A stretch of 32,683 nt of DNA. It comes from an uncultured Solirubrobacteraceae bacterium. GTDB lineage: Bacteria > Actinomycetota > Thermoleophilia > Solirubrobacterales > Solirubrobacteraceae. Positions 4,303 to 26,542 of the stretch are shown here, piece after piece. Position 1 is the first letter of the stretch. Every line of letters begins with the position of its first letter. The notes beneath the pieces were generated by a model, which did not search any database, was not told the DNA's origin, and saw nothing but the letters and a program-made list of their open reading frames with translations. The stretch spans positions 1 to 32,683 of the forward strand of contig CATPBV010000089.1 of the NCBI GenBank assembly GCA_955652345.1, written 5' to 3'. The position numbers were made by a program, and so were the translations under genes.

Positions 4303-4655
4303 TCGCGCGGGTCGTCGCCTATGTTCCGGACCTGCTGTTCGGGTCCAGCGTGCTCGGCGCCATCCAGGCAGCCGGGCACGAGGCAGTCCTCGTACCCGAC
4401 CTCGAGCGCCTGCGGGAGGCCCTCCCGAGCGCCGATGCGCTGGTCGTCGATCTGACCGCCGACGCCGCAGTGCGCGCCCGGCAGGTGAGCGAGTGCCGTC
4501 CGCCGGGATTCCCGGCGCTGGCCTTCTATTCGCACGTGGAGGCCGACGTTCGCGCGCTCGCCGAGCGCACCGGGTTCGACCTCGTGGTGCCCCGCTCGCG
4601 GATGGCGCGCGAGGGGCCGCAGCTGGTGGAGCGGCTAATAGCCGCCGGGCGGTGA
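4302..4655 (+). CDS. Receiver-like / Rossmann-like hypothetical protein
   Basis: Reading frame IARVVAYVPDLLFGSSVLGAIQAAGHEAVLVPDLERLREALPSADALVVDL... has alternating strand/helix pattern. The natural start appears to be ATC at 4302 within TAATC; the only canonical upstream start is GTG 4248. Confidence 0.5.
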   Translation: MARVVAYVPDLLFGSSVLGAIQAAGHEAVLVPDLERLREALPSADALVVDLTADAAVRARQVSECRPPGFPALAFYSHVEADVRALAERTGFDLVVPRSRMAREGPQLVERLIAAGR

Positions 4656-5648
4656 GGGGACCGAGGCGGCGAAGCTCGAGTCGAACATCTGCCCCACGTC
4701 AGGAGGGCGCGAGACGATATGAAAGCGTGCCTCCCAGCTCGCCCAGGCCTGGAGCGCACGCGGATCCAGCCTCCCGACCTTGCGGTCGCGACCGCTGAAC
4801 GCCGGAAGCAGCGCACCGAGCTGTGCGGCAACGAGCTTGGGGTCGAGGCCGGCGACGAACGACTCGAGGTCCGCGGCACTCCGCTGCGGGTTCGAGAGCG
4901 TGAAGTCATAGCCGTAGACGAGCATCTTGACCACGGAGGCGGCGAGGTCTGGATCGTCTCGGACGAGCCTGCGCGTCGTGCAGACGACGAGCTCCGGGTA
5001 CCGGGGCGCGCCGTAATCGTCGACCCTGAAGACGTGAAATCCGGGGCGCCGCAGCGACAGCGTTACGCCCTCGTCGTTCCAGAACGCGGTCGCAGCCGCG
5101 ACCCGCCCGGCGAGCAGCACCGGCACCGCGTCGAAGCCGATCGTGACCGTCCGGACCGCTGACGGGTCGCCGCCGGCGCCCGCGACGACCGAGCGCAGCA
5201 CCGCGGTGTCGCTCGGGACGCCGGTGATCCCGACGGTCTTGCCCGCGAGCTGCCGTGGCGATCCCACCGACCGCGCGGCGATCACCGACGCCAGCGGGCG
5301 CTGGACGATCGCCATGATCGCGACCAGGCGCGCGCCGCGCTCGCGGGCGATCGCGAGGTCGTGCAGGTCGAGGATCGCGAAGTCGACGCGCCGGCTCTCC
5401 AGCAGCCCGATCGAGTTGGTCGACGCTTGGGGGACGATCACATTGAGGTGCACGCCGACGATACGGTCGTAGTGGTGCGCAAGGGCCGAGTAGATCCCGG
5501 CATGGACCGCGTTGGGCGTGAAGTCGAGCACCAGGGTCGCGTTGCGGACGCGTGTAGCTCCGCTGCCCGAGCCGCACCCCGCGATCAGCAGGGCGACGAG
5601 CAGCGGCAGGAGTGATCGCCTCGCCGGGAGTGTCCGGGTGATACGCAT
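4635..5648 (-). CDS. ABC transporter substrate-binding lipoprotein, NMT1/THI5-like
   Basis: Lipoprotein signal (LLIAGCGSG); LVLDFTPNAVHAGIYSALAHHY and ESRRVDFAILDLHDLAIARERG are typical of NMT1/THI5-like binding proteins. Confidence 0.85.
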   Translation of the reverse strand: MRITRTLPARRSLLPLLVALLIAGCGSGSGATRVRNATLVLDFTPNAVHAGIYSALAHHYDRIVGVHLNVIVPQASTNSIGLLESRRVDFAILDLHDLAIARERGARLVAIMAIVQRPLASVIAARSVGSPRQLAGKTVGITGVPSDTAVLRSVVAGAGGDPSAVRTVTIGFDAVPVLLAGRVAAATAFWNDEGVTLSLRRPGFHVFRVDDYGAPRYPELVVCTTRRLVRDDPDLAASVVKMLVYGYDFTLSNPQRSAADLESFVAGLDPKLVAAQLGALLPAFSGRDRKVGRLDPRALQAWASWEARFHIVSRPPDVGQMFDSSFAASVPSPPGGY

Positions 5649-5689: not shown

Positions 5690-7912
5690 ATGCGCCGACG
5701 CGTCACGTTCAGCCGTAACCTCACGCTGTCGCTGTCGCGGACCTGTCGGTGCTACTGCAAGTACTGCTCGTTCGCCACCCACAGAGAGCACCTCTACTCG
5801 CCGGACGAAGTCGAGGCGATCCTCGACCAGGCGGTTGCGCGCCATCGCGTCAAGGAGCTGCTCGTGCTGACCGGCGAGCGGCCGGAGGTGAACGAGGGAG
5901 TCGCGGCGCGGCTGGCGGAACACGGGTTCAGCGACTTCACCTCCTACGTGGTGTGGGTCTGCGAGCGCGCGCTCGAGCGCGGGTTGCTCCCGCATACCAA
6001 CCTCGGCGTCCTGCCGCGGGGCGACCTCGAGCGCCTGCGGGAGGTCACGGCATCTCAGGGGCTGATGCTCGAGTCGATCTCCGAGCGGCTGATGGAGACC
6101 GTCCACGCTGGATCGCCGTCCAAGCACCCCGCGCGCAGGATCGAGACGATCGCCACGGCCGGGGAGCTGCGAATCGCCTTCACCACCGGGATCCTGGTGG
6201 GGATCGGCGAGACCGGGGATGAGCGGATCGCCTCACTCGAGGCGCTCGCCGAGCTTCATCGCAAGTACGGGCACATCCAGGAGGTGATCCTCCAGAACTA
6301 CGTCCCGCACGAGAGCTACTACGGCCGCGAGCCGGCGCAGATCGCGGGTGCTGCGGCGAGCGAGTACTGGCGGACGGGGATGTGGTCGGGCCCGCAGCTC
6401 GACGCTCCGGCCTGGGCGTGCCCGGTCACGCTCGATGACATGAAACGCCTCGTCGCGGAGACGCGGCGGCTGATGCCCGGCGTCGGGATCCAGGTTCCGC
6501 CGAACCTGTCCGACTGGTGGCCGGAGCTGGTGCGCGCCGGCGCCACCGACCTGGGCGGGCTCAGCGCCAACGGCGACCACATCTCGCCCGAGCATCCGTT
6601 CCCGTCGCCCGCGCAGGTGCGAAAGCTGCTGCACGCAGACGGATTGGCGCTGACCGAGCGCCTGTGCGTGTATCCCGAGTACATCGATCCGCACTGGGTC
6701 TCGGAGGCGGTGCTCGACGTGATCAAGCGCTGCTACTGGTCGTTTATCCCGCGTCGGGGGTCGGGTCGGCGGGGAGGCGTCTCGATCTCGGACGAGGCCG
6801 CGCCGCGGGCGGTCTCCCGCGCACGAGTCGGCCTCCCGCTCACCGCTGAGGAGCTGACCGCGCTGTTCGCCGAGCGCCGGCCGTCAGTAATCGAGGAGAT
6901 GCGGTGCGCCGCGGACGAGCTCCGCGAGGAGCTCGCGGGAGAAACGGTGACGTTCGTCGTCAACCGCAACATCAACGTCTCGAACATCTGCGTGGTCGGC
7001 TGCGCGTTCTGCGGGTTCGGCCAGTCTCGTCGCTCGCCCGACGCGTACGAGCAATCGGCCGAGGAGTTCGCGAGCCGCGTACTGGAGGCGGTCGACTTCG
7101 GCGCCACCGAGATCTGCATGCAATCCGGGATCCACCCCGACTGGGGTGTCGAGGACTACGAGAAGTGGCTGCGGCTCGCGCACGAGGTCGCGCCGCACCT
7201 GCACCTGCATGCATACTCGCCGATGGAGGTCGCCCACATGTGCGACGTCAGCGGGCTGCCGCCGCTCGAAGTGTTCGAGCGGCTGCGGGCGGCGGGGCTC
7301 GGCTCGACGCCGGGGACGGCGGCGGAGGTTCTGCACGACGGAGTCCGGGAGCGGATCTCCCCGAACAAGCTGCCCGTCGCCCGCTGGATCGAGATCATCG
7401 AGGCCGCGCACGCGGCGGGAATCCGCTCCACTGCGACGGTGATGTTCGGACACATTGAGGAGCCGTGGGAGCTGGCCGAGCACATGCGGGTCGTGCGCGA
7501 GCTCCAGGAGCGAACGGGCGGATTCACCGAGTTCGTGCCGCTGTCGTTCATCCCGTTCCACACGCTGCTCGGGAGGACCCACGGGATCGAGGAGATCTCG
7601 ACCGAGGAGAACCTCAAGCACACCGCCGCGTTCCGGCTGGCGCTCGGACGCTCCGTCCGGAACCTCCAGGCGAGCTGGGTGAAGATGGGGCTCGACGCGG
7701 CGACCGAGTCTCTGCGCTGGGGCGTCAACGACCTCGGCGGCACGCTGATGGAGGAGTCGATCTCGCGGATGGCGGGGAGCTATCACGGGGTAAGGCTCGA
7801 GCCCGCGGACCTGATCGCGGCGGCTCACCGGGCGGGGCGCCCGGCCGCGGAGCGCACCACCCTGTACGAGATCCGCCGGCGCCACGAGCTCCTCGCGACA
7901 GCGACGGCATGA
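5690..7912 (+). CDS. fbiC: FbiC: 7,8-didemethyl-8-hydroxy-5-deazariboflavin synthase (CofG-CofH fusion)
   Basis: Two radical-SAM Cys motifs, CRCYCKYCSF near the N-terminus and CVVGCAFCGF in the second half; 740 aa, CofG then CofH order. Confidence 0.96.
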   Translation: MRRRVTFSRNLTLSLSRTCRCYCKYCSFATHREHLYSPDEVEAILDQAVARHRVKELLVLTGERPEVNEGVAARLAEHGFSDFTSYVVWVCERALERGLLPHTNLGVLPRGDLERLREVTASQGLMLESISERLMETVHAGSPSKHPARRIETIATAGELRIAFTTGILVGIGETGDERIASLEALAELHRKYGHIQEVILQNYVPHESYYGREPAQIAGAAASEYWRTGMWSGPQLDAPAWACPVTLDDMKRLVAETRRLMPGVGIQVPPNLSDWWPELVRAGATDLGGLSANGDHISPEHPFPSPAQVRKLLHADGLALTERLCVYPEYIDPHWVSEAVLDVIKRCYWSFIPRRGSGRRGGVSISDEAAPRAVSRARVGLPLTAEELTALFAERRPSVIEEMRCAADELREELAGETVTFVVNRNINVSNICVVGCAFCGFGQSRRSPDAYEQSAEEFASRVLEAVDFGATEICMQSGIHPDWGVEDYEKWLRLAHEVAPHLHLHAYSPMEVAHMCDVSGLPPLEVFERLRAAGLGSTPGTAAEVLHDGVRERISPNKLPVARWIEIIEAAHAAGIRSTATVMFGHIEEPWELAEHMRVVRELQERTGGFTEFVPLSFIPFHTLLGRTHGIEEISTEENLKHTAAFRLALGRSVRNLQASWVKMGLDAATESLRWGVNDLGGTLMEESISRMAGSYHGVRLEPADLIAAAHRAGRPAAERTTLYEIRRRHELLATATA

Positions 7913-9659: not shown

Positions 9660-10415
9660 ATGCCGAACGCATTGTCGGAAATGGACGAGCACCTGCTCGA
9701 AGAGTCGGAGTGGGACTTCTCGGACCTGCGCGCGCTCTACATCAACTGTTCTCTGAAGCGCTCGCCCGAGGTTTCCCACACCCAGGGGCTCGGCGACCGC
9801 TCGATCGCGATCATGGAGCGACTCGGCGTGTCGGTGAAGTCGATTCGCGCGATCGACCACGAGATCGCGACCGGCATCTACCCGGACATGACCGAGCATG
9901 GGTGGGAGCGCGACGAGTGGCCCGCGATCTACGAGGACGTGCTCGCGTCCGACATCCTCGTGCTGCTCGCGCCGATTTGGCTCGGCGAGAAGTCCTCGGT
10001 CTGCACGAAGGTGATCGAGCGGCTGTACGGGAACAGTCACCTGCTGAACGAGGCCGGCCAGTACGCCTACTACGGGCGCGTCGGCGGATGCATCATCACC
10101 GGCAACGAGGATGGCGCCAAGCACTGCGCGATGAACATCCTCTATTCACTCCAGCACCTCGGCTACGCGATCCCGCCGCAGGCCGATTCCGGGTGGTTGG
10201 GGGAAGCGGGGCCAGGGCCCAGCTACCTCGATCCCGGCTCAGGTGGCCCCGAGAACGACTTCACGAACCGAAATACGACGTTCCTCACCTGGAATCTGCT
10301 CCATCTCGCCCGGATGCTCAAGGACGCTGGAGGGTTCCCGGCACATGGGAACCAACGAGCGTTGTGGGACGCGGGCTGCCGCTTCGAATACGACAACCCC
10401 GAGCATCGGGTGTAG
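9660..10415 (+). CDS. NAD(P)H-dependent FMN reductase-like flavodoxin-fold protein
   Basis: LRALYINCSLKRSPEVSHTQGL and ASDILVLLAPIWLGEKSS match the flavodoxin-like reductase pattern. SD-like AAAGGGG precedes the ATG. Confidence 0.82.
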   Translation: MPNALSEMDEHLLEESEWDFSDLRALYINCSLKRSPEVSHTQGLGDRSIAIMERLGVSVKSIRAIDHEIATGIYPDMTEHGWERDEWPAIYEDVLASDILVLLAPIWLGEKSSVCTKVIERLYGNSHLLNEAGQYAYYGRVGGCIITGNEDGAKHCAMNILYSLQHLGYAIPPQADSGWLGEAGPGPSYLDPGSGGPENDFTNRNTTFLTWNLLHLARMLKDAGGFPAHGNQRALWDAGCRFEYDNPEHRV

Positions 10416-10434
10416 GGAGAAAAATGGACCAGCC

Positions 10435-12387
10435 CTAGATGAGGTCAGGATCGCACATGACTTCGACCAGCGCCGGCCCTCGATAAGCGGCGGCTTCCCC
10501 GAGCGCCTCGTCGAGCTGCTCCGGTCGCTTCACCCGGATCCCCAAGGCCCCGCAGATCTCCGCGTACTTGGAGAAGTCGGGGTTGTGCAGCGACGTCTGC
10601 CAGACGTCCCAATCGCCGGCGCGCTGCTCCTTCGAGATCTTGCCGAGCTGGCCGTTGTTGAGTAGCACGTGGGTGATATTCATGCGGTGCTTAACGGCTG
10701 TCAGTACCTCCGCCATGTACTGGGCGAAGCCGCCGTCGCCCGTGACCGCGTAGATCGGCCGCTCCGGGGACGCCGCCCACGCACCGATCGCCGCCGGGTA
10801 GCCGAACCCGATCGACCCGAGGTACCCGGACATCAGCACCGACTGGCTCCCGCGGCACTCGAAGTAGCGGCCGAACGAGTATGCGTGGTTGCCGACATCG
10901 ACCGCGATCACGGCATCCTCAGGCACGTGCCGGCCGAGCGCCGCGAACACAGCCGCCGAGCTGACCCCGCATCCCCGGTCGTCCCGTGCCCGGCTTGCCT
11001 TCTCGGCCCGCCAGATCGCCCAGCGCTCGGCGACCTCGACCCGCTGGTCGACGCGATCCATCGGCGGGTCGCCGAGGAGCGAACAGAAGCGCTCGAGCAC
11101 GACGCCGATCTCACCCCACACCGGCACCGTCACGGGATGGAACTTGCCGAGCTGAAGCGGATCGACGTCGACCTGGATGATCGGCTTGCCCGCATAGATG
11201 CCGGTGTGGTTCGAGAACGAGGCGCCGAGCACCACGAGCAGGTCGGACTCGTTCATCAGCCAGCTCGCCACCGGCGTGCCGCTGCGTCCGAGGACGCCGC
11301 ACGCGAGCGGGTGGTCGTCGGGGATCTGGCCCTTGGCCTTGAAGGTGGTGATGACCGGCGCGTCCAGCCGTTCCGCGAACGAGATCGCCTCGTCACGGTG
11401 AAAGCGCGCACCGTGGCCGAGGATCAGCACCGGTCGCTTCGCCGCCGCGAGAAGCTCGACGGCCCGCGCTACCGCGTCGTCGGGCGGCGAGATCTCGAGC
11501 GATGTGATCCTGCCCTCGGGCCCCGAAGCCTCACCCGCCGCCGGCAGCGTCTGGACCTCGTCCGGGAAGATCAGGTGTGCGGGGCCCTGCTGGAGGATCG
11601 CGTGCTTACAGGCGAGCGTCATCAGCTCGGCGTGCTTGGAGCTCTCGAGCACCGTCTGCGTCCAGCGCGCAACCTTGCCGAACGCCGCTGAGAGATCGAC
11701 CTCCTGGAAGGCGCCCGGGCCGAGCACCTGGGTGTCGACCTGTCCGGTCAGGGCGATCACGGGCGCGCGGTCGACGTTGGCGTCCCACAGCCCGGTCAGC
11801 AGGTTGGTGGCCCCGGGACCCGCGATCGTCAGGCAAGCGGCGGGACGCCCGGTCAGCTTGCCGTACGCGGAGGCGGCGAACGCCGCGGCTCCCTCATGGC
11901 GAATCCCGATGTACGTAAGCGCACCCGCCTCCTCCTGGCGCCGGAGCGCGTCGGCGAGGCCGAGGTTCGAGTGGCCGACCATCCCGAACACATGCCTGAC
12001 GCCCCAATTCACCATCGTCTGCGCCATCACGTCGCTGACCGTCGTGGCGTGCGGCCGGTCGGGCTCGACGCCGACGTAGATGCCGTCCTCGCGGATGTCG
12101 ATCGGGAAGGTGGGGACGCTGTCGCCGAACGGTGAGCTCCCGTCCAGCGGGCAGTAGTCGTAGCCGTGCCAGGGGCAGCGCAGCATCCCCTTCTCGATCG
12201 AGCCCTCGCCGAGCGGCCCGCCCTGATGCGGGCAGCGGTTCGAGAGCGCCGCGTAGCGGCCGTCGAAGTGGGTCAGCGCGAAGCTGTGCCGCCCGGCGGT
12301 CACGGTCTTGACGCGTCCTTCGGGCAGCTCGTCGGCGGCGAGCACGTGGTGCCAGATCAGTCCGTTGCTGGGGCTAGATTGCGACAT
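10435..12387 (-). CDS. Rieske [2Fe-2S] domain fused to ThDP-dependent enzyme (pyruvate oxidase/acetolactate synthase-like)
   Basis: N-terminal Rieske motif CPH-x16-CPWH (NRCPHQGGPLGEGSIEKGMLRCPWHGYDYC); ThDP catalytic Glu region GIRHEGAAAFAASAY; ThDP motif GDGGFAQYMAEVLTAVKHRMNITHVLLNN, all in one uninterrupted frame. ATG 12387 preferred over 12444, which would overlap the divergent antiporter. Confidence 0.9.
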   Translation of the reverse strand: MSQSSPSNGLIWHHVLAADELPEGRVKTVTAGRHSFALTHFDGRYAALSNRCPHQGGPLGEGSIEKGMLRCPWHGYDYCPLDGSSPFGDSVPTFPIDIREDGIYVGVEPDRPHATTVSDVMAQTMVNWGVRHVFGMVGHSNLGLADALRRQEEAGALTYIGIRHEGAAAFAASAYGKLTGRPAACLTIAGPGATNLLTGLWDANVDRAPVIALTGQVDTQVLGPGAFQEVDLSAAFGKVARWTQTVLESSKHAELMTLACKHAILQQGPAHLIFPDEVQTLPAAGEASGPEGRITSLEISPPDDAVARAVELLAAAKRPVLILGHGARFHRDEAISFAERLDAPVITTFKAKGQIPDDHPLACGVLGRSGTPVASWLMNESDLLVVLGASFSNHTGIYAGKPIIQVDVDPLQLGKFHPVTVPVWGEIGVVLERFCSLLGDPPMDRVDQRVEVAERWAIWRAEKASRARDDRGCGVSSAAVFAALGRHVPEDAVIAVDVGNHAYSFGRYFECRGSQSVLMSGYLGSIGFGYPAAIGAWAASPERPIYAVTGDGGFAQYMAEVLTAVKHRMNITHVLLNNGQLGKISKEQRAGDWDVWQTSLHNPDFSKYAEICGALGIRVKRPEQLDEALGEAAAYRGPALVEVMCDPDLI

Positions 12388-12401
12388 TAATAGGCCTGTT
12401 A
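12388..12401. promoter_or_regulatory. Near-perfect palindrome TAATAGGCCTGTTA in divergent intergenic region
   Basis: 12/14 self-complementary, immediately upstream of the Rieske-ThDP start. Confidence 0.3.
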
Positions 12402-12429
12402 GGAAAGCGCGGTCAGACTGGTAATCGGC

Positions 12430-13710
12430 GTGAGCGCCATCCACTTTACGAATCTGTTAATCGTCGTGGCACTCGCGTTCGCGGCCCCGTTCGTGCTGGG
12501 ACTGGCGCCGCGGCTGAGGCTGCCCGCGGTGGTGCTCGAGATCGTCGCCGGGATCGTGGTGGGTCCGTCCGGCCTCGGCTGGGTCAAGATCGATGAGCCG
12601 GTCGAGATTCTCTCGTTGCTGGGGCTCTCGTTCCTGCTGTTCCTCGCGGGGACCGAGATCGACATCCGTCGGCTGAAAGGGCAGACGCTGCGGTTGACGG
12701 CGCTGGGGTACCTCGTGTCGCTGGTGATCGGCGTCGGCGCGGGCCTCGCGTTTCACGCCGCGGGCCTGGTGCGCTCGCCGCTGTTGATCGCGATCGTGCT
12801 CGCTTCGACCTCGCTCGGTGTGATCGTGCCGGTGCTGAAGGACTCGGGCAACGTCACCTCGAGCTTCGGCCAGCTCGTGATTGCGGCCGCGTCGATCGCC
12901 GACTTCGGCGCGATCATCCTGCTGACGCTGTTCTTCTCCGGTCAGCATTCGACCGGCACCGCCGGGAAGCTGATCCTGCTCGGGCTGTTCGCAGCGCTGG
13001 TGGCGGCCGCGGGCCTGGCGATCAAGGGGCTCGAGCGGTCTTTGCGGCTGGGGTCGGTGCTGATCTCCCTACAGGACACGACCGCGCAGATCAGGGTGCG
13101 TGGCGCCTTCGTGCTGCTGGTCGCGTTCGTCGCGCTCGCGGAGCAGGTGGGCTTCGAGACGATTCTCGGCGCGTTCGCCGCCGGGGCGCTCCTGTCCCTG
13201 ATCGACCGCGATGAGGCGATGACGCATCCGCAGCTCCGGCTGAAGCTGGAGGCCGCCGGGTTCGGCTTCTTCATCCCGGTGTTCTTCATCGCGAGCGGCC
13301 TGCGGTTCGATCTGAACGCGCTGTTCTCGAGCGCCTCGACGGTCGCGCGGGTGCCGCTGTTCCTGCTCGCGCTGGTCGCCGTCAGGGCGGTGCCGGCGTT
13401 GCTGTACGGGCGCCTGCTCCCGCGTGGCCAGCAGGTTGCCGCGGGGCTGCTCCAGGCGACCTCGTTGCCGTTTATCGTGACCGCCGCGATGATCGGCCTC
13501 CAGCTCAGGGTCGTCTCGAGCCCGACTGCGGCCGGTCTGATCGCCGCCGGGATGCTGTCGGTGATCCTGTTCCCGCTTGCGGGCCTGGCGATCCTCCGAC
13601 GCGGCGAAGCCGACGATCGCCGCACGACGGCGATGCCCACTCCGGCAACTCCGGTCCTCGGTGTCGAGGACCGCGCGCTGTGCCGGGACGCTCTCGGGAT
13701 GGCGCGGTGA
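12430..13710 (+). CDS. Cation:proton antiporter (Kef/CPA2-like membrane domain)
   Basis: Highly hydrophobic; ARLRLPAVVLEIVAGIVVGPSGLGW-type start and LLFLAGTEIDIRRLKG; no TrkA-like C-terminal domain. GTG start. Confidence 0.88.
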   Translation: MSAIHFTNLLIVVALAFAAPFVLGLAPRLRLPAVVLEIVAGIVVGPSGLGWVKIDEPVEILSLLGLSFLLFLAGTEIDIRRLKGQTLRLTALGYLVSLVIGVGAGLAFHAAGLVRSPLLIAIVLASTSLGVIVPVLKDSGNVTSSFGQLVIAAASIADFGAIILLTLFFSGQHSTGTAGKLILLGLFAALVAAAGLAIKGLERSLRLGSVLISLQDTTAQIRVRGAFVLLVAFVALAEQVGFETILGAFAAGALLSLIDRDEAMTHPQLRLKLEAAGFGFFIPVFFIASGLRFDLNALFSSASTVARVPLFLLALVAVRAVPALLYGRLLPRGQQVAAGLLQATSLPFIVTAAMIGLQLRVVSSPTAAGLIAAGMLSVILFPLAGLAILRRGEADDRRTTAMPTPATPVLGVEDRALCRDALGMAR

Positions 13711-14645
13711 ACAATCCCGGTGCCGAAGCATTCGAGCGGCTCGACGGCCGCTACGAGACGCGGGTGCTGGAGCCATCCCCGCCGGCCGTTGCCGAAGGCC
13801 CATGGTTTGCCGACGATCCAGTCGCCCGCGGCGAGGTTCCCGCCGGGCGGCGGGTCGTTTCGCCGGTGCCTACGGGCGACGTCAGCTGGGAGGAGCTGGC
13901 GGCCGGCGACGAGGGGCTGCGAGAGTGGTGTGCCGAGCGCTGGCTGGCCGGGTTTCGACGGCTCCGGCCTGCTCCGGCCACGCTCGTCGACACCCGGTTG
14001 GGGCTCCATCGCGTCGCCGAGCAGGTGATCTCGCCCGCGCGCCGGCACGCCAACACGAAGATCGCCCTTCGCTACACCCGCGGCGGCTTCGGCACCCCCT
14101 TCTTCGGTGACGACGTGCAGGTGCGAGTGCTTGCCGACGATCTGATCGTCGAGCAGGCGGGCACCGAGCGCAGCGCAAAGATCTCGACGCTCGCGGCGGC
14201 GGCCGAGCACATCGGCCGCAAGCTCCTCCCGGATGACGTCGAGCTGGACGACGAGCCGCTCGAAGTTGATCCAGACGCTTCGCGCTTCCTCGGTGACTGG
14301 TACGGGTTCGCCTGCAACGTGCTCGAGACGCTCCGTGCGCAGGCGGGAGAGGCTGCTGATCCATCGCGCGTCCAGCTGTGGGCCGAGCACTTCGACCTGG
14401 CGGTGGAGCTCGGGCGAGAGGACGCCGGCCAGCGCGCCGGGTACGGCCTCTCGCCGGGAGACGAGCATCACCCGGAGCCGTACGCATATGTCGTCCCGTG
14501 GGTTGCCCCCACCCCTGGCGAGCTGTGGCAGGCAACCGGGTTCCCCGGTGCGGAACTGTCATACGCCGAGTTGCTCGACGCCGCCGATCAGCGGGCGCTC
14601 GTGCTCCAGTTCCTCAGTGAGCGGTTCGCGGCGCTGACCGGGTGA
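13707..14645 (+). CDS. Uncharacterised protein (312 aa)
   Basis: GTG start in GTGA overlap with the antiporter stop. Contains ANTKIALRYTRGGFGTPFFGDDVQVRV and DEHHPEPYAYVVPW. No family recognised. Confidence 0.75.
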   Translation: MNNPGAEAFERLDGRYETRVLEPSPPAVAEGPWFADDPVARGEVPAGRRVVSPVPTGDVSWEELAAGDEGLREWCAERWLAGFRRLRPAPATLVDTRLGLHRVAEQVISPARRHANTKIALRYTRGGFGTPFFGDDVQVRVLADDLIVEQAGTERSAKISTLAAAAEHIGRKLLPDDVELDDEPLEVDPDASRFLGDWYGFACNVLETLRAQAGEAADPSRVQLWAEHFDLAVELGREDAGQRAGYGLSPGDEHHPEPYAYVVPWVAPTPGELWQATGFPGAELSYAELLDAADQRALVLQFLSERFAALTG

Positions 14646-23258: not shown

Positions 23259-24500
23259 ATGGAGCGGTGGCTCTCCAGCGAGCGCAACGTCCGGGTCTGC
23301 GCCGTCCTCGGCGCGGTCGCGATCGCGTTCTCGAGCATCCTCGTCAGGCTCAGCCACGCGTCGCCGTCGACGTCGGCGATCTTCCGGTGCGCGTATGCCC
23401 TTCCGGTGCTCGGCTTGCTCGCCTGGCGGGAGGACCGCCGACACGGGCCTCGGTCCTGGAGCGAGCGGCGAACCGCAGTCGCCGCCGGGGTGTTCTTTGC
23501 CGCCGATCTGATGCTGTGGCACCGCTCGATCGCCGACGTCGGCGCGGGTCTTGCGACTGTGCTCGCGAACGTGCAGGTGGTCCTGGTGCCGCTGGTCGCA
23601 TGGATGGTCCTCGCGGAGCGTCCGGGGCGCAAGGTTCTCGCCGCGTTGCCGGTCGCGCTGCTGGGGGTGCTGCTGATCTCCGGCGCGCTCGAGCACGGTG
23701 CGTATGGCCGGAACCCGACCCGTGGCGCGATCCTGGGCCTCGGCGCCGGCATCGCGTACGTCGGCTTCCTGCTGCTGCTGCGCCGTAGCGGGGCGGATCT
23801 CCGCAGGCCTGCCGGTCCTCTGTTCGACGCGACCGCCGTCGCCGCGGTGTTGTGCGTCCTCGGCGGCGAAGCTCTCGGCGATGCCCATCTCGTGCCGGTC
23901 TGGCCGGGAGCGGCCTGGCTGATCACGCTTGCGCTGACCTCGCAGGTGCTCGGATGGCTCCTGATCGCGGCGTCGCTGCCCCGCCTGAAGGCCGCGCTGG
24001 TATCCGTGCTGCTGACAATCCAGCCGGTTGGGTCGGTCGCGCTTGCCGCGCTGATCCTCGGCGAGTCGCCGAGCGCACTTCAGCTGATCGGCGTTGGGAT
24101 CGTGCTCGCCGGGCTGCTCGTCGCCACCGCTCCGAAGCGGTCTCTATCTGAACAGGTCGTGCGTCTCCGGCCGGATCATCGCGACGGCGCCCGGGCCGTC
24201 GCCGGCGATCACGTGGCGTCCAGCGCCGCGAACCAGCACCACCGGCTGAAGGCCGTCCTTGGTCCGCGCCAGGTCGGCCGCCGCCGCGAGCTCGTCGACG
24301 ACCGCAATCCAGGTGGCCCGCAGCTCCCGCCCGAACGCATCGAGGCGACCGCGCCAGTCCTCGAGCGGTCCGATCCCGGCGCATCCGATCGCGATGTCGG
24401 ACTGGCCTTGGCGCCACGCTCGCCCGAAGGAGTCGGTGATCACCACCCCCGGGCTCACGCCGAGCAGCGAACGGAGCCCCGAGCGCAGCGCCCGCGCTGA
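23259..24500 (+). CDS. DMT/EamA-family transporter with long non-membrane C-terminal tail
   Basis: Multiple hydrophobic segments with duplicated EamA-like halves (AIAFSSILVRLSHASPSTSAIFRCAYALP; GESPSALQLIGVGIVLAGLLVAT). The last ~115 codons are hydrophilic and antisense to cofE. Confidence 0.82.
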   Translation: MERWLSSERNVRVCAVLGAVAIAFSSILVRLSHASPSTSAIFRCAYALPVLGLLAWREDRRHGPRSWSERRTAVAAGVFFAADLMLWHRSIADVGAGLATVLANVQVVLVPLVAWMVLAERPGRKVLAALPVALLGVLLISGALEHGAYGRNPTRGAILGLGAGIAYVGFLLLLRRSGADLRRPAGPLFDATAVAAVLCVLGGEALGDAHLVPVWPGAAWLITLALTSQVLGWLLIAASLPRLKAALVSVLLTIQPVGSVALAALILGESPSALQLIGVGIVLAGLLVATAPKRSLSEQVVRLRPDHRDGARAVAGDHVASSAANQHHRLKAVLGPRQVGRRRELVDDRNPGGPQLPPERIEATAPVLERSDPGASDRDVGLALAPRSPEGVGDHHPRAHAEQRTEPRAQRPR

Positions 24501-24914
24501 GGCATCGGGGTCTCGCGGCAAGAGCACGACCGCATCGTCACCGCGGACGTTCGACGCGTCGACGCCCGCGTTCGCGCATACGAAGCCGTGCTGCGTCTCG
24601 CAGATCAGGACCCCATGGGCGGCACGGAGCACCTTGCGGGATTCGTCCAGCACGACCTGCACGTGCCTGGGGTCCTTGCCGAGCTCACGGGCCAGGGCGG
24701 TGGCCCGCTCGCCGGGGACAACGGCCGACAGCGCGCGTAAGCGGCCCTCGGCCTTGGAGACGATCTTGTGCGCGACGACAACGACATCGCCATCGCGAAC
24801 ACCGCCGTCGCAGCCGGGTAGGGCGCCCGCGATGAGCTCCGCGATGTCATCCCCTGGAGCGATCTCAGGCAGCCCTACGAGCGCCGTAACGGTCACGCTC
24901 GGGGTGGGCTCCAT
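24144..24914 (-). CDS. cofE: Coenzyme F420-0:L-glutamate ligase (CofE; FbiB N-domain type)
   Basis: LVGLPEIAPGDDIAELIAGAL, DGDVVVVAHKIVSKAEGR, GVVITDSFGRAWRQGQSDIAIGCAGI; about 256 aa, lacking a C-terminal nitroreductase-like domain. Confidence 0.94.
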   Translation of the reverse strand: MEPTPSVTVTALVGLPEIAPGDDIAELIAGALPGCDGGVRDGDVVVVAHKIVSKAEGRLRALSAVVPGERATALARELGKDPRHVQVVLDESRKVLRAAHGVLICETQHGFVCANAGVDASNVRGDDAVVLLPRDPDASARALRSGLRSLLGVSPGVVITDSFGRAWRQGQSDIAIGCAGIGPLEDWRGRLDAFGRELRATWIAVVDELAAAADLARTKDGLQPVVLVRGAGRHVIAGDGPGAVAMIRPETHDLFR

Positions 24915-24935: not shown

Positions 24936-25592
24936 CTAGGCGCGGCTTCGCGTGAGTTGGCGCAGGGCCCCTCGGGTGTGTGCTGCTCTGCCGTGGATCG
25001 ACTCGAGCGCGACGTACAGCTGCTCGAGATCATCGGGAGTATCGATGTCGAGCGCGAGCGACGACACCTCGACGACCTCCGCTGCGGTTCCGTCCCGTTC
25101 GGCGTTCGCCTGGTGCCGGGCACAGCTGTCCGGTCCAAACGCCGGCTCCAGCGAGTCGGGCGGCGTCAGCAGCAGCCCGTTGGTCCCGGTGCCGTGCCGA
25201 TCGGGAACGATCGCCACAGCCGGCGCCGGATCCCTGCTGATCAGCTCATCGACCTCCACGGGGTCGAGGAGCGGGCAGTCTCCGGGGACGAGCAGCGCAC
25301 GTCCCGCGCTGGCCCGGCATGCAGCCAGCACCCCGACCGCCGCCGCGGCGTTGTGGCCTCGCTCGTGATCGATGAGCACGCTTGCGCCATATCCCCCGGC
25401 GACCTGCGCGGCGTGGTCGTCCGCGGTGACCACGAGGATCTCATCGATCCGCTTGGCACGCCGGAGTGCGACCAGAACGTCGCAGTACATCGCCTGCGCG
25501 ATCACGCGCCGCGTCCCGATGTCGAGACCCTCGTCGAGCCGTTGCTTGGCCTTGGCGAAGGTCTTCACGGGCAGGATCGCGAACGTCCGCAT
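24936..25592 (-). CDS. cofC: Phospholactate/phosphoenolpyruvate guanylyltransferase (CofC/FbiD)
   Basis: ILPVKTFAKAKQRLDEGL, LLVPGDCPLLDPVEVDEL, GTGTNGLLLTPPD; position in F420 operon. Confidence 0.93.
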   Translation of the reverse strand: MRTFAILPVKTFAKAKQRLDEGLDIGTRRVIAQAMYCDVLVALRRAKRIDEILVVTADDHAAQVAGGYGASVLIDHERGHNAAAAVGVLAACRASAGRALLVPGDCPLLDPVEVDELISRDPAPAVAIVPDRHGTGTNGLLLTPPDSLEPAFGPDSCARHQANAERDGTAAEVVEVSSLALDIDTPDDLEQLYVALESIHGRAAHTRGALRQLTRSRA

Positions 25593-25611
25593 CGGCGGAA
25601 AACCTACCCGC

Positions 25612-26526
25612 TCACGACGCCAGCGCCAGTGCGAACCGCAACGCCTCCTCCGCCAGTCTCGCTCGAGCCGCAGGCGCATCCATCAGCACATCCGTCTCGA
25701 GCACCGGAAGCAGCGCGGTTCGCTGATCCGCCACAAGTCCGTCGAGCAGTCCTTCGTAGCACCCGACGACACCGGCGCTGCTCAGCGGGCGGCGCTCGAG
25801 CTCGAGGAATTCGGCAGTGGGACCCTTCAGCACCGCGCCGCCGACAAGGGGGCTGACGGCAACGACCGCGGCGGCGGTGTTCCGCACGGCGGCTCGGATC
25901 GAGTCGATCGCGAGGATCGGCCCGATCGAGGCGATCGGGTTCGAGGGGCCGATCACAACCGCGCGGGCGGCCGCTATCGCCGCGAGCACCTCGGGCGTCG
26001 GCCGCGCTGCCCGAGCCCCGCGAAAATCGACCGCGTCGACTGGACCGCGACCTTTGCCGGCGATCATGAACTCCTGGAAGGACCACCAGCGGCCGTGGGC
26101 CAGCACGCGCGTTCGGACGGGGACGTCGCACATGGGGAGCACGCGAGCCTGGACTCCGAGCGCCGCGGTGAGCGCAGCGTGCGCATCGGTCAGGCGCGCC
26201 CCATCGCGCAGCGCACGAGCGCGCTCGATACCGATCGCGAGATCCCTGTCGCCGAGGTTGAACCACACGTCGGCGCCCAGCTCACGGAGCCCGTCCATGA
26301 CGCTGAACGTGTCGCCGGCCAGGCCCCAGCCGCGCTCGTCGATCCGATCCGCCAGCCAGAACGTGACGAGATCCGGATCGGGCGATACGTACGCCCCGTA
26401 GATCTCGATGTCGTCGCCGGTGTTGGCGATCACCACGAGCTCGCCGGGCCCGACGACGTCGAGCATGCCGCGCGCAAGCTTCGCGCCGCCAGTGCCGCCG
26501 GCCAGGAGGACGACCGGCCCACTCAT
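25612..26526 (-). CDS. cofD: 2-phospho-L-lactate transferase (CofD/FbiA)
   Basis: VVLLAGGTGGAKLARGML, ANTGDDIEIYGAYVSPDPD, IGPSNPIASIGPIL. Confidence 0.95.
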   Translation of the reverse strand: MSGPVVLLAGGTGGAKLARGMLDVVGPGELVVIANTGDDIEIYGAYVSPDPDLVTFWLADRIDERGWGLAGDTFSVMDGLRELGADVWFNLGDRDLAIGIERARALRDGARLTDAHAALTAALGVQARVLPMCDVPVRTRVLAHGRWWSFQEFMIAGKGRGPVDAVDFRGARAARPTPEVLAAIAAARAVVIGPSNPIASIGPILAIDSIRAAVRNTAAAVVAVSPLVGGAVLKGPTAEFLELERRPLSSAGVVGCYEGLLDGLVADQRTALLPVLETDVLMDAPAARARLAEEALRFALALAS

Positions 26527-26542
26527 AGCCAAACCGGCCCGC

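Follow-up and report, generated by a model that had tools for sequence, protein, structure and literature searches.

A Rieske domain fused to a pyruvate-oxidase-like ThDP enzyme: conserved architecture, exchangeable N-terminal redox modules and a predicted alternative electron exit

The stretch of DNA analysed here (the window) comprises 32,683 nucleotides of contig CATPBV010000089.1 (GenBank assembly GCA_955652345.1, positions 1 to 32,683) from an uncultured Solirubrobacteraceae bacterium, the metagenome-assembled genome (MAG) of which consists of 344 contigs and is 77% complete. The gene of interest occupies positions 10435-12387 and encodes a protein of 650 amino acids. A preliminary description of this DNA had given these coordinates and a single uninterrupted frame correctly and had not stated the strand, which is minus: the ATG start codon lies at 12387, the stop codon at 10435-10437, and all 650 codons are unbroken. 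A plus-strand reading of the same interval was rejected because that strand is not open there.

Four Pfam domains were found in the protein, all scoring well above their curated cut-offs. The N-terminal Rieske [2Fe-2S] domain (residues 12-108, positions 12064-12354; PF00355 match over residues 12-84, E 1e-15) reached 57.9 bits against a cut-off of 20.3. Its predicted cluster ligands, C52 and H54 (12226-12234) and C71 and H74 (12166-12177), are arranged as C52-P-H54, x16, C71-P-W-H74, so the intact CxH-x16-CxxH ligand set reported earlier was confirmed. The extra disulphide cysteines (CxHxxC, CxCH) of bc1/b6f-type Rieske proteins are absent, CPHQGG and CPWH being present instead, and a Rieske domain of the ferredoxin type with a low potential is therefore expected. 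The nearest solved chain to this part is the CarAc Rieske ferredoxin (1vck, E 1e-8). Residues 1-108 can be aligned over their full length, ligand pattern included, with Rieske ferredoxins of ring-hydroxylating dioxygenases (CarAc as well as toluene and biphenyl dioxygenase); those proteins, however, stand alone and feed oxygenases, whereas the Rieske domain described here is covalently joined to a ThDP enzyme.

The remainder of the protein is made up of TPP_enzyme_N (residues 116-233, positions 11689-12042, E 3e-34), TPP_enzyme_M (residues 306-433, positions 11089-11472, E 1e-35) and TPP_enzyme_C (residues 497-643, positions 10459-10899, E 3e-37), all on the minus strand. Alignment to E. coli PoxB and Lactobacillus plantarum pyruvate oxidase (LpPOX) placed the catalytic glutamate at E165, within an RHEG motif of the first domain, which also holds a fusion-specific histidine, H139. 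The ThDP motif GDGGF...NN spans residues 550-578 of the third domain, in which K583 and E587 stand at the places of LpPOX F479 and E483. The N-M-C core of POX and PoxB, including its catalytic Glu and its GDG...N motif, is thus present, bearing out the complete ThDP enzyme that had been proposed. The flavodoxin-like TPP_enzyme_M domain is the one that carries the FAD site in POX and PoxB. Only five residues follow the core, and Pfam found no match to domains of 2-oxo-acid:ferredoxin oxidoreductases (OFOR).

The source genome is a fragmented MAG, and an assembly chimera or a frameshift could in principle have joined two genes. Screening 85,462 species genomes yielded 265 relatives, the best 80 of which were analysed; of the six seed peptides, one came from the Rieske domain, a slight bias toward fusions. 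These best 80 share 59-89% identity, are full or near-full copies and are all fusions of the same architecture, the copy in L061 being truncated within its Rieske domain where the contig stops. About 16 bacterial phyla are represented, and the record titles include Actinomycetota, Dormibacteraeota, Chloroflexi, Cyanobacteria, Acidobacteriota, Myxococcota, Pseudomonadota, Bacteroidota, Chlorobiota, Calditrichota, Planctomycetota, Verrucomicrobia (Opitutales), Gemmatimonadales, Hydrogenedentota and Latescibacterota, among others. An independent search of 348 whole genomes of the phylum recovered 12 fusion genes from 11 genomes, counting that of the window (58-100% identity, always with the Rieske domain), and the next-best matches, at 36-41% identity in five genomes, came without it. 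A genome of the window's genus carries the fusion at 65% identity. Isolate genomes are among the 80 other loci, and the architecture is kept on complete plasmids of haloarchaea and Mycobacteroides abscessus. Nocardioides donggukensis has the fusion, as do Labrenzia and Pontivivens isolates, which are cultured aerobes. The preliminary description had named a frameshift or join near codons 110-120, consistently split homologs and loss of cluster ligands in relatives as signs that would speak against the fusion. The frame is open throughout that region, every homolog of at least 58% identity has the Rieske domain, and the ligands are invariant wherever they are covered (C52/H54 in 80/80 aligned fusions, C71/H74 in 81/81); the ligand loop has a second length, greater by about five residues, in proteobacterial and some other copies. 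Because 80 independent loci in other genomes read alike, the fusion is no chance or assembly join, and we regard the artefact explanation as refuted, its residual probability being negligible.

In public annotation the plasmid fusions are called 'thiamine pyrophosphate-binding protein', and the family as a whole is known in public databases under generic names only. On the haloarchaeal plasmids (L118, L119, L139 and L140) the gene lies amid merA/dihydrolipoyl-dehydrogenase-like, DsrE, TauE/SafE and HTH genes, a setting that suggests a redox/sulphur or stress gene cluster.

An AlphaFold2 model of the protein, built from 42 sequences, had a pLDDT of 90.2 and a pTM of 0.89. It contains no low-confidence linker, and the blocks covering the Rieske-ThDP junction (residues 101-120) stand at pLDDT 93; the two domains therefore look docked in the model rather than loosely tethered. 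The best solved Foldseek matches were LpPOX (1pox/1pow, E 2e-45), PoxB, acetohydroxyacid synthase (AHAS) and Corynebacterium PQO (9ev3-9ev6), and no match was seen to span both the Rieske and the ThDP domains. At the sequence level, the closest enzyme to the ThDP part is PoxB (pyruvate:ubiquinone oxidoreductase, 3eya/3ey9), which matches the core end to end at about 28% identity in the structural comparison, shares the catalytic Glu and the GDG...N motif and has E469 at the place of E587. PQO shares the FAD/ThDP oxidoreductase fold and uses a quinone as acceptor. None of these three oxidoreductases has an Fe-S domain, however, and the C-terminal membrane/quinone segment of PoxB, which runs to residue 572, is absent from the fusion.

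Comparison with LpPOX showed that E59, F121, Q122 and E483 are kept (E165, F227, Q228 and E587), whereas G35, H89 and F479 are changed to H139, N195 and K583. H139, H394, Q556, Y557 and K583 are the same in all of 44 fusions, and elsewhere they are rare or missing. The active-site Phe next to ThDP and FAD (LpPOX F479, EcPoxB F465) is Lys in 44 of 44. H139 and K583 are two additional basic residues at the substrate end of ThDP. They suggest that the substrate carries a second negative charge; an anionic 2-oxo acid would fit, and pyruvate is unsupported. The curated pyruvate oxidase and dehydrogenase models likewise missed the protein: the best, NF006377, gave 400 bits against a cut-off of 742, and SpxB (304 against 638) and PRK09124 (302 against 792) also remained below theirs, as did the AHAS model TIGR00118 (305 against 538); none of the curated NCBIfam models scores at or above its cut-off. 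Of the designation 'pyruvate-oxidase-like', the fold and ancestry are upheld and pyruvate as substrate is not. Given these scores, the replaced Phe and the tree position described below, we class the fusion as POX-like by fold and ancestry and do not file it as a pyruvate oxidase. FAD would probably be bound in the central domain, which matches PF00205 and has FAD-containing POX, PoxB and AHAS as its best structural matches. Some relatives, AHAS for example, keep FAD non-catalytically, and ancestry is therefore no proof of redox catalysis in the fusion.

In a careful tree all fusions formed one clade (ultrafast bootstrap/SH-aLRT 100/100). Its sister consists of three Actinobacteriota genes (100/97), and both lie outside the rows with PoxB and LpPOX; the separation from POX/PoxB (100/97) counts as moderate evidence, given the length of the LpPOX and PoxB rows. 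A quick tree that included additional rows agreed with this result. The sister genes could not be taken as unfused: Pfam finds a rubredoxin domain at their N-terminus (E 3e-9 to 3e-10), in the same place as the Rieske domain. They lie in small Actinobacteriota genomes (L133:1348-3099, L134:1354-3105 and L135:744-2519), and a transketolase-like gene adjoins two of them. The short C-terminus was rejected as a mark of the Rieske fusions because the rubredoxin clade is equally short.

Within the fusion clade, further modules have been added at the same end. CDGSH-CDGSH-Rieske-ThDP is the in-frame reading of three gammaproteobacterial genes, for one of which Pfam confirmed it, and two actinobacterial single open reading frames (L126:1498-4143 and L129:1498-4416) encode CDGSH-Fer4_19-CDGSH-Rieske-ThDP, with three kinds of Fe-S module stacked. 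CDGSH was seen only as such in-frame extra modules in a few clades, and none was found in the window's own MAG. An upstream CDGSH gene considered as a general partner was rejected as a frame-shifted reading of the end of another gene, the true general partner being the Rieske-glutamate-synthase gene described below. Carriers swapped or added at one position of one ThDP core (rubredoxin, Rieske, CDGSH and 4Fe-4S) are what an electron-transfer role predicts, and we regard this exchange and stacking as the strongest evidence for an electron-carrying role of the N-terminal domain.

The neighbourhood survey covered 98 loci. In 38 of them a gene for a Rieske domain fused to a glutamate-synthase FMN domain lies within a few kb (PF01645 E 4e-91, PF00355 E 7e-13), usually directly upstream and on the same strand; in G013, a genome of the window's genus, it ends 96 bp before the fusion. 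The Rieske ligands and the C-x5-C-x4-C cluster motif of this partner are intact in every complete copy examined. It keeps the domain and the motif of the large subunit of glutamate synthase (FMN/[3Fe-4S]; 7mfm, 2vdc, 1ofd) but, unlike that enzyme, lacks a glutaminase domain and has the Rieske domain ahead of the FMN domain; the gene at L022:3443-5089 is an example, with counterparts in 37 further loci. Its annotation is only 'glutamate synthase-related protein', and the architecture is apparently undescribed in the literature searched. Among 20 further fusion genomes the partner gene was present in 12 and not found in eight, nor was it found in the window's own incomplete genome.

The window has a different set of neighbours, contiguous from 9660 to 14645. 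A flavodoxin-like protein of 251 amino acids (FMN_red, PF03358, E 3e-6; 9660-10415, plus strand) is convergent with the fusion, the 3' ends lying about 20 bp apart. Homologs with 56-76% identity stand beside the fusion in eight other loci (nine with the window), and none of the 98 loci has both this gene and the Rieske-glutamate-synthase partner. We consider the flavodoxin-like protein a candidate soluble electron partner. On the other side, a CPA2-like cation/H+ antiporter gene (Na_H_Exchanger, E 3e-55; 12430-13710, plus strand) diverges from the fusion with about 42 bp between the start codons. Antiporters of this type, from three subfamilies, occur near 12 of 84 fusions. About one would be expected in stretches of this size by our estimate, since 20 genomes averaged some 3.8 such genes each; several of the 12 belong to related lineages, which brings the excess closer to seven independent cases. 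The 3' end of the antiporter gene is overlapped by a gene for a DUF5996-related protein of 321 amino acids (13680-14645, plus strand), which has no Pfam match of its own and is linked at E 4e-12 to an L026 gene matching DUF5996. Its homologs lie near the fusion in 22 other loci (23 with the window), with 55% identity over 310 residues in L012. On the M. abscessus plasmid, fusion, flavodoxin and antiporter genes again occur together. PADLOC matched no anti-phage defence model to the four clustered genes of the window, and a defence role was rejected.

From these results we propose, with moderate confidence, that the fusion acts in the cytosol as a ThDP-dependent 2-oxo-acid oxidoreductase, that it belongs to the POX/PoxB lineage and that it releases its electrons by way of a one-electron carrier joined to it covalently. 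ThDP, activated by E165, would attack an anionic 2-oxo acid held in part by H139 and K583, and loss of CO2 would leave the enamine. The enamine would then give up its two electrons singly, with FAD in the central domain as the most likely intermediate, to the [2Fe-2S] cluster that the Rieske domain is predicted to assemble, and a soluble partner would receive them from there. In the window that partner would be the adjacent flavodoxin-like protein; in many relatives it would be the glutamate-synthase-like protein (Rieske-FMN-[3Fe-4S]) encoded in the same operon. In OFOR enzymes the ThDP adduct is oxidised in one-electron steps to an Fe-S carrier, and the proposed chemistry would resemble theirs in outline; OFORs differ in their [4Fe-4S] clusters, their use of CoA and their arrangement of ThDP domains. 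The alternative electron exit put forward in the preliminary description is thus strongly supported by the rubredoxin swap and the stacked CDGSH and 4Fe-4S modules, and strengthened further by the partner near 38 of the 98 copies, itself Rieske-fused and with the glutamate synthase cluster cysteines kept; the direction of flow is our prediction. The eight of 20 fusion genomes without this partner count against it.

The same observations bear on three other readings. The preliminary description had also considered a sensor or gating role, which appears less likely than an electron exit: the Rieske cluster would sense redox state or oxygen and gate the ThDP enzyme, while electrons left elsewhere, to O2 or quinone. 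In its favour, Rieske clusters of the ferredoxin type can respond to redox state, two haloarchaeal plasmids have a PAS sensor kinase gene ahead of the fusion, and the DUF5996-like and antiporter genes nearby are suggestive of a stress context. Exchange for rubredoxin and stacking with CDGSH and 4Fe-4S modules are not expected of a sensor, however, and the operon partner is a Rieske-fused redox enzyme, so that we judge this explanation unlikely. Electrons might instead flow the other way, from the partner through the Rieske domain into a reductive or carboligating ThDP reaction. Homologous Rieske ferredoxins, including the closest solved chains, do donate electrons in oxygenase systems, and a flavodoxin-like or FMN enzyme could be the donor. 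Yet the characterised close structural relatives with redox activity (POX, PoxB and PQO) are established to oxidise the ThDP adduct, and we know of no precedent for a reductive ThDP reaction in this superfamily; a reversed flow thus seems improbable.

We give equally little credence to a non-redox, AHAS-like carboligase or lyase in which the Rieske domain is structural. The ThDP domains do score similarly against AHAS, and H139 and K583 set the active site apart from that of POX, but a structural role leaves unexplained both the invariance of the ligands over such divergence and the replacement by rubredoxin, and the tree groups the fusions nearer to POX/PoxB than to AHAS-like rows. The reading that we favour as the probable one is therefore still an enzyme that acts in the manner of POX and PoxB and differs from them in where its electrons leave. 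Much more tentatively, the fusion and its partner may form an NAD(P)H-independent couple, in which electrons from oxidative decarboxylation of an anionic 2-oxo acid by the Rieske-ThDP protein would pass from Rieske to Rieske to a reductive, amination-like step of the FMN/[3Fe-4S] enzyme; flavodoxin would replace the partner in the window's variant, and rubredoxin, Rieske, CDGSH and 4Fe-4S domains would be interchangeable plugs on one ThDP core.

Characterised PoxB-type enzymes pass electrons to quinone or oxygen. If the proposed exit is correct, ThDP flavoenzymes would be linked to ferredoxin-like electron pools outside the OFOR family, and the keeping, swapping and stacking of carriers at one spot suggests an uncharacterised electron drain from keto-acid breakdown. 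Fusion and Rieske-glutamate-synthase partner make up a testable two-gene unit, unexplored in many genomes. No description of a Rieske-ThDP fusion was found in the open literature searched, which covers few subscription journals and preprints, and neither PMC7176365 nor PMC6037941 treats such a fusion.

Some further genes of the window are recorded here as separate observations. An SsuA/NMT1-like periplasmic binding lipoprotein is encoded at 4635-5648 on the minus strand, with TIGR01728 below its cut-off; it was rejected as a member of the conserved set because no homolog lies near other fusions. Reading of the translations pointed to a single-polypeptide FO synthase-like radical SAM protein at 5690-7912 and to CofE-, CofC- and CofD-like genes at 24144-24914, 24936-25679 and 25612-26532, so that genes of the coenzyme F420 pathway are split over two places in the window.
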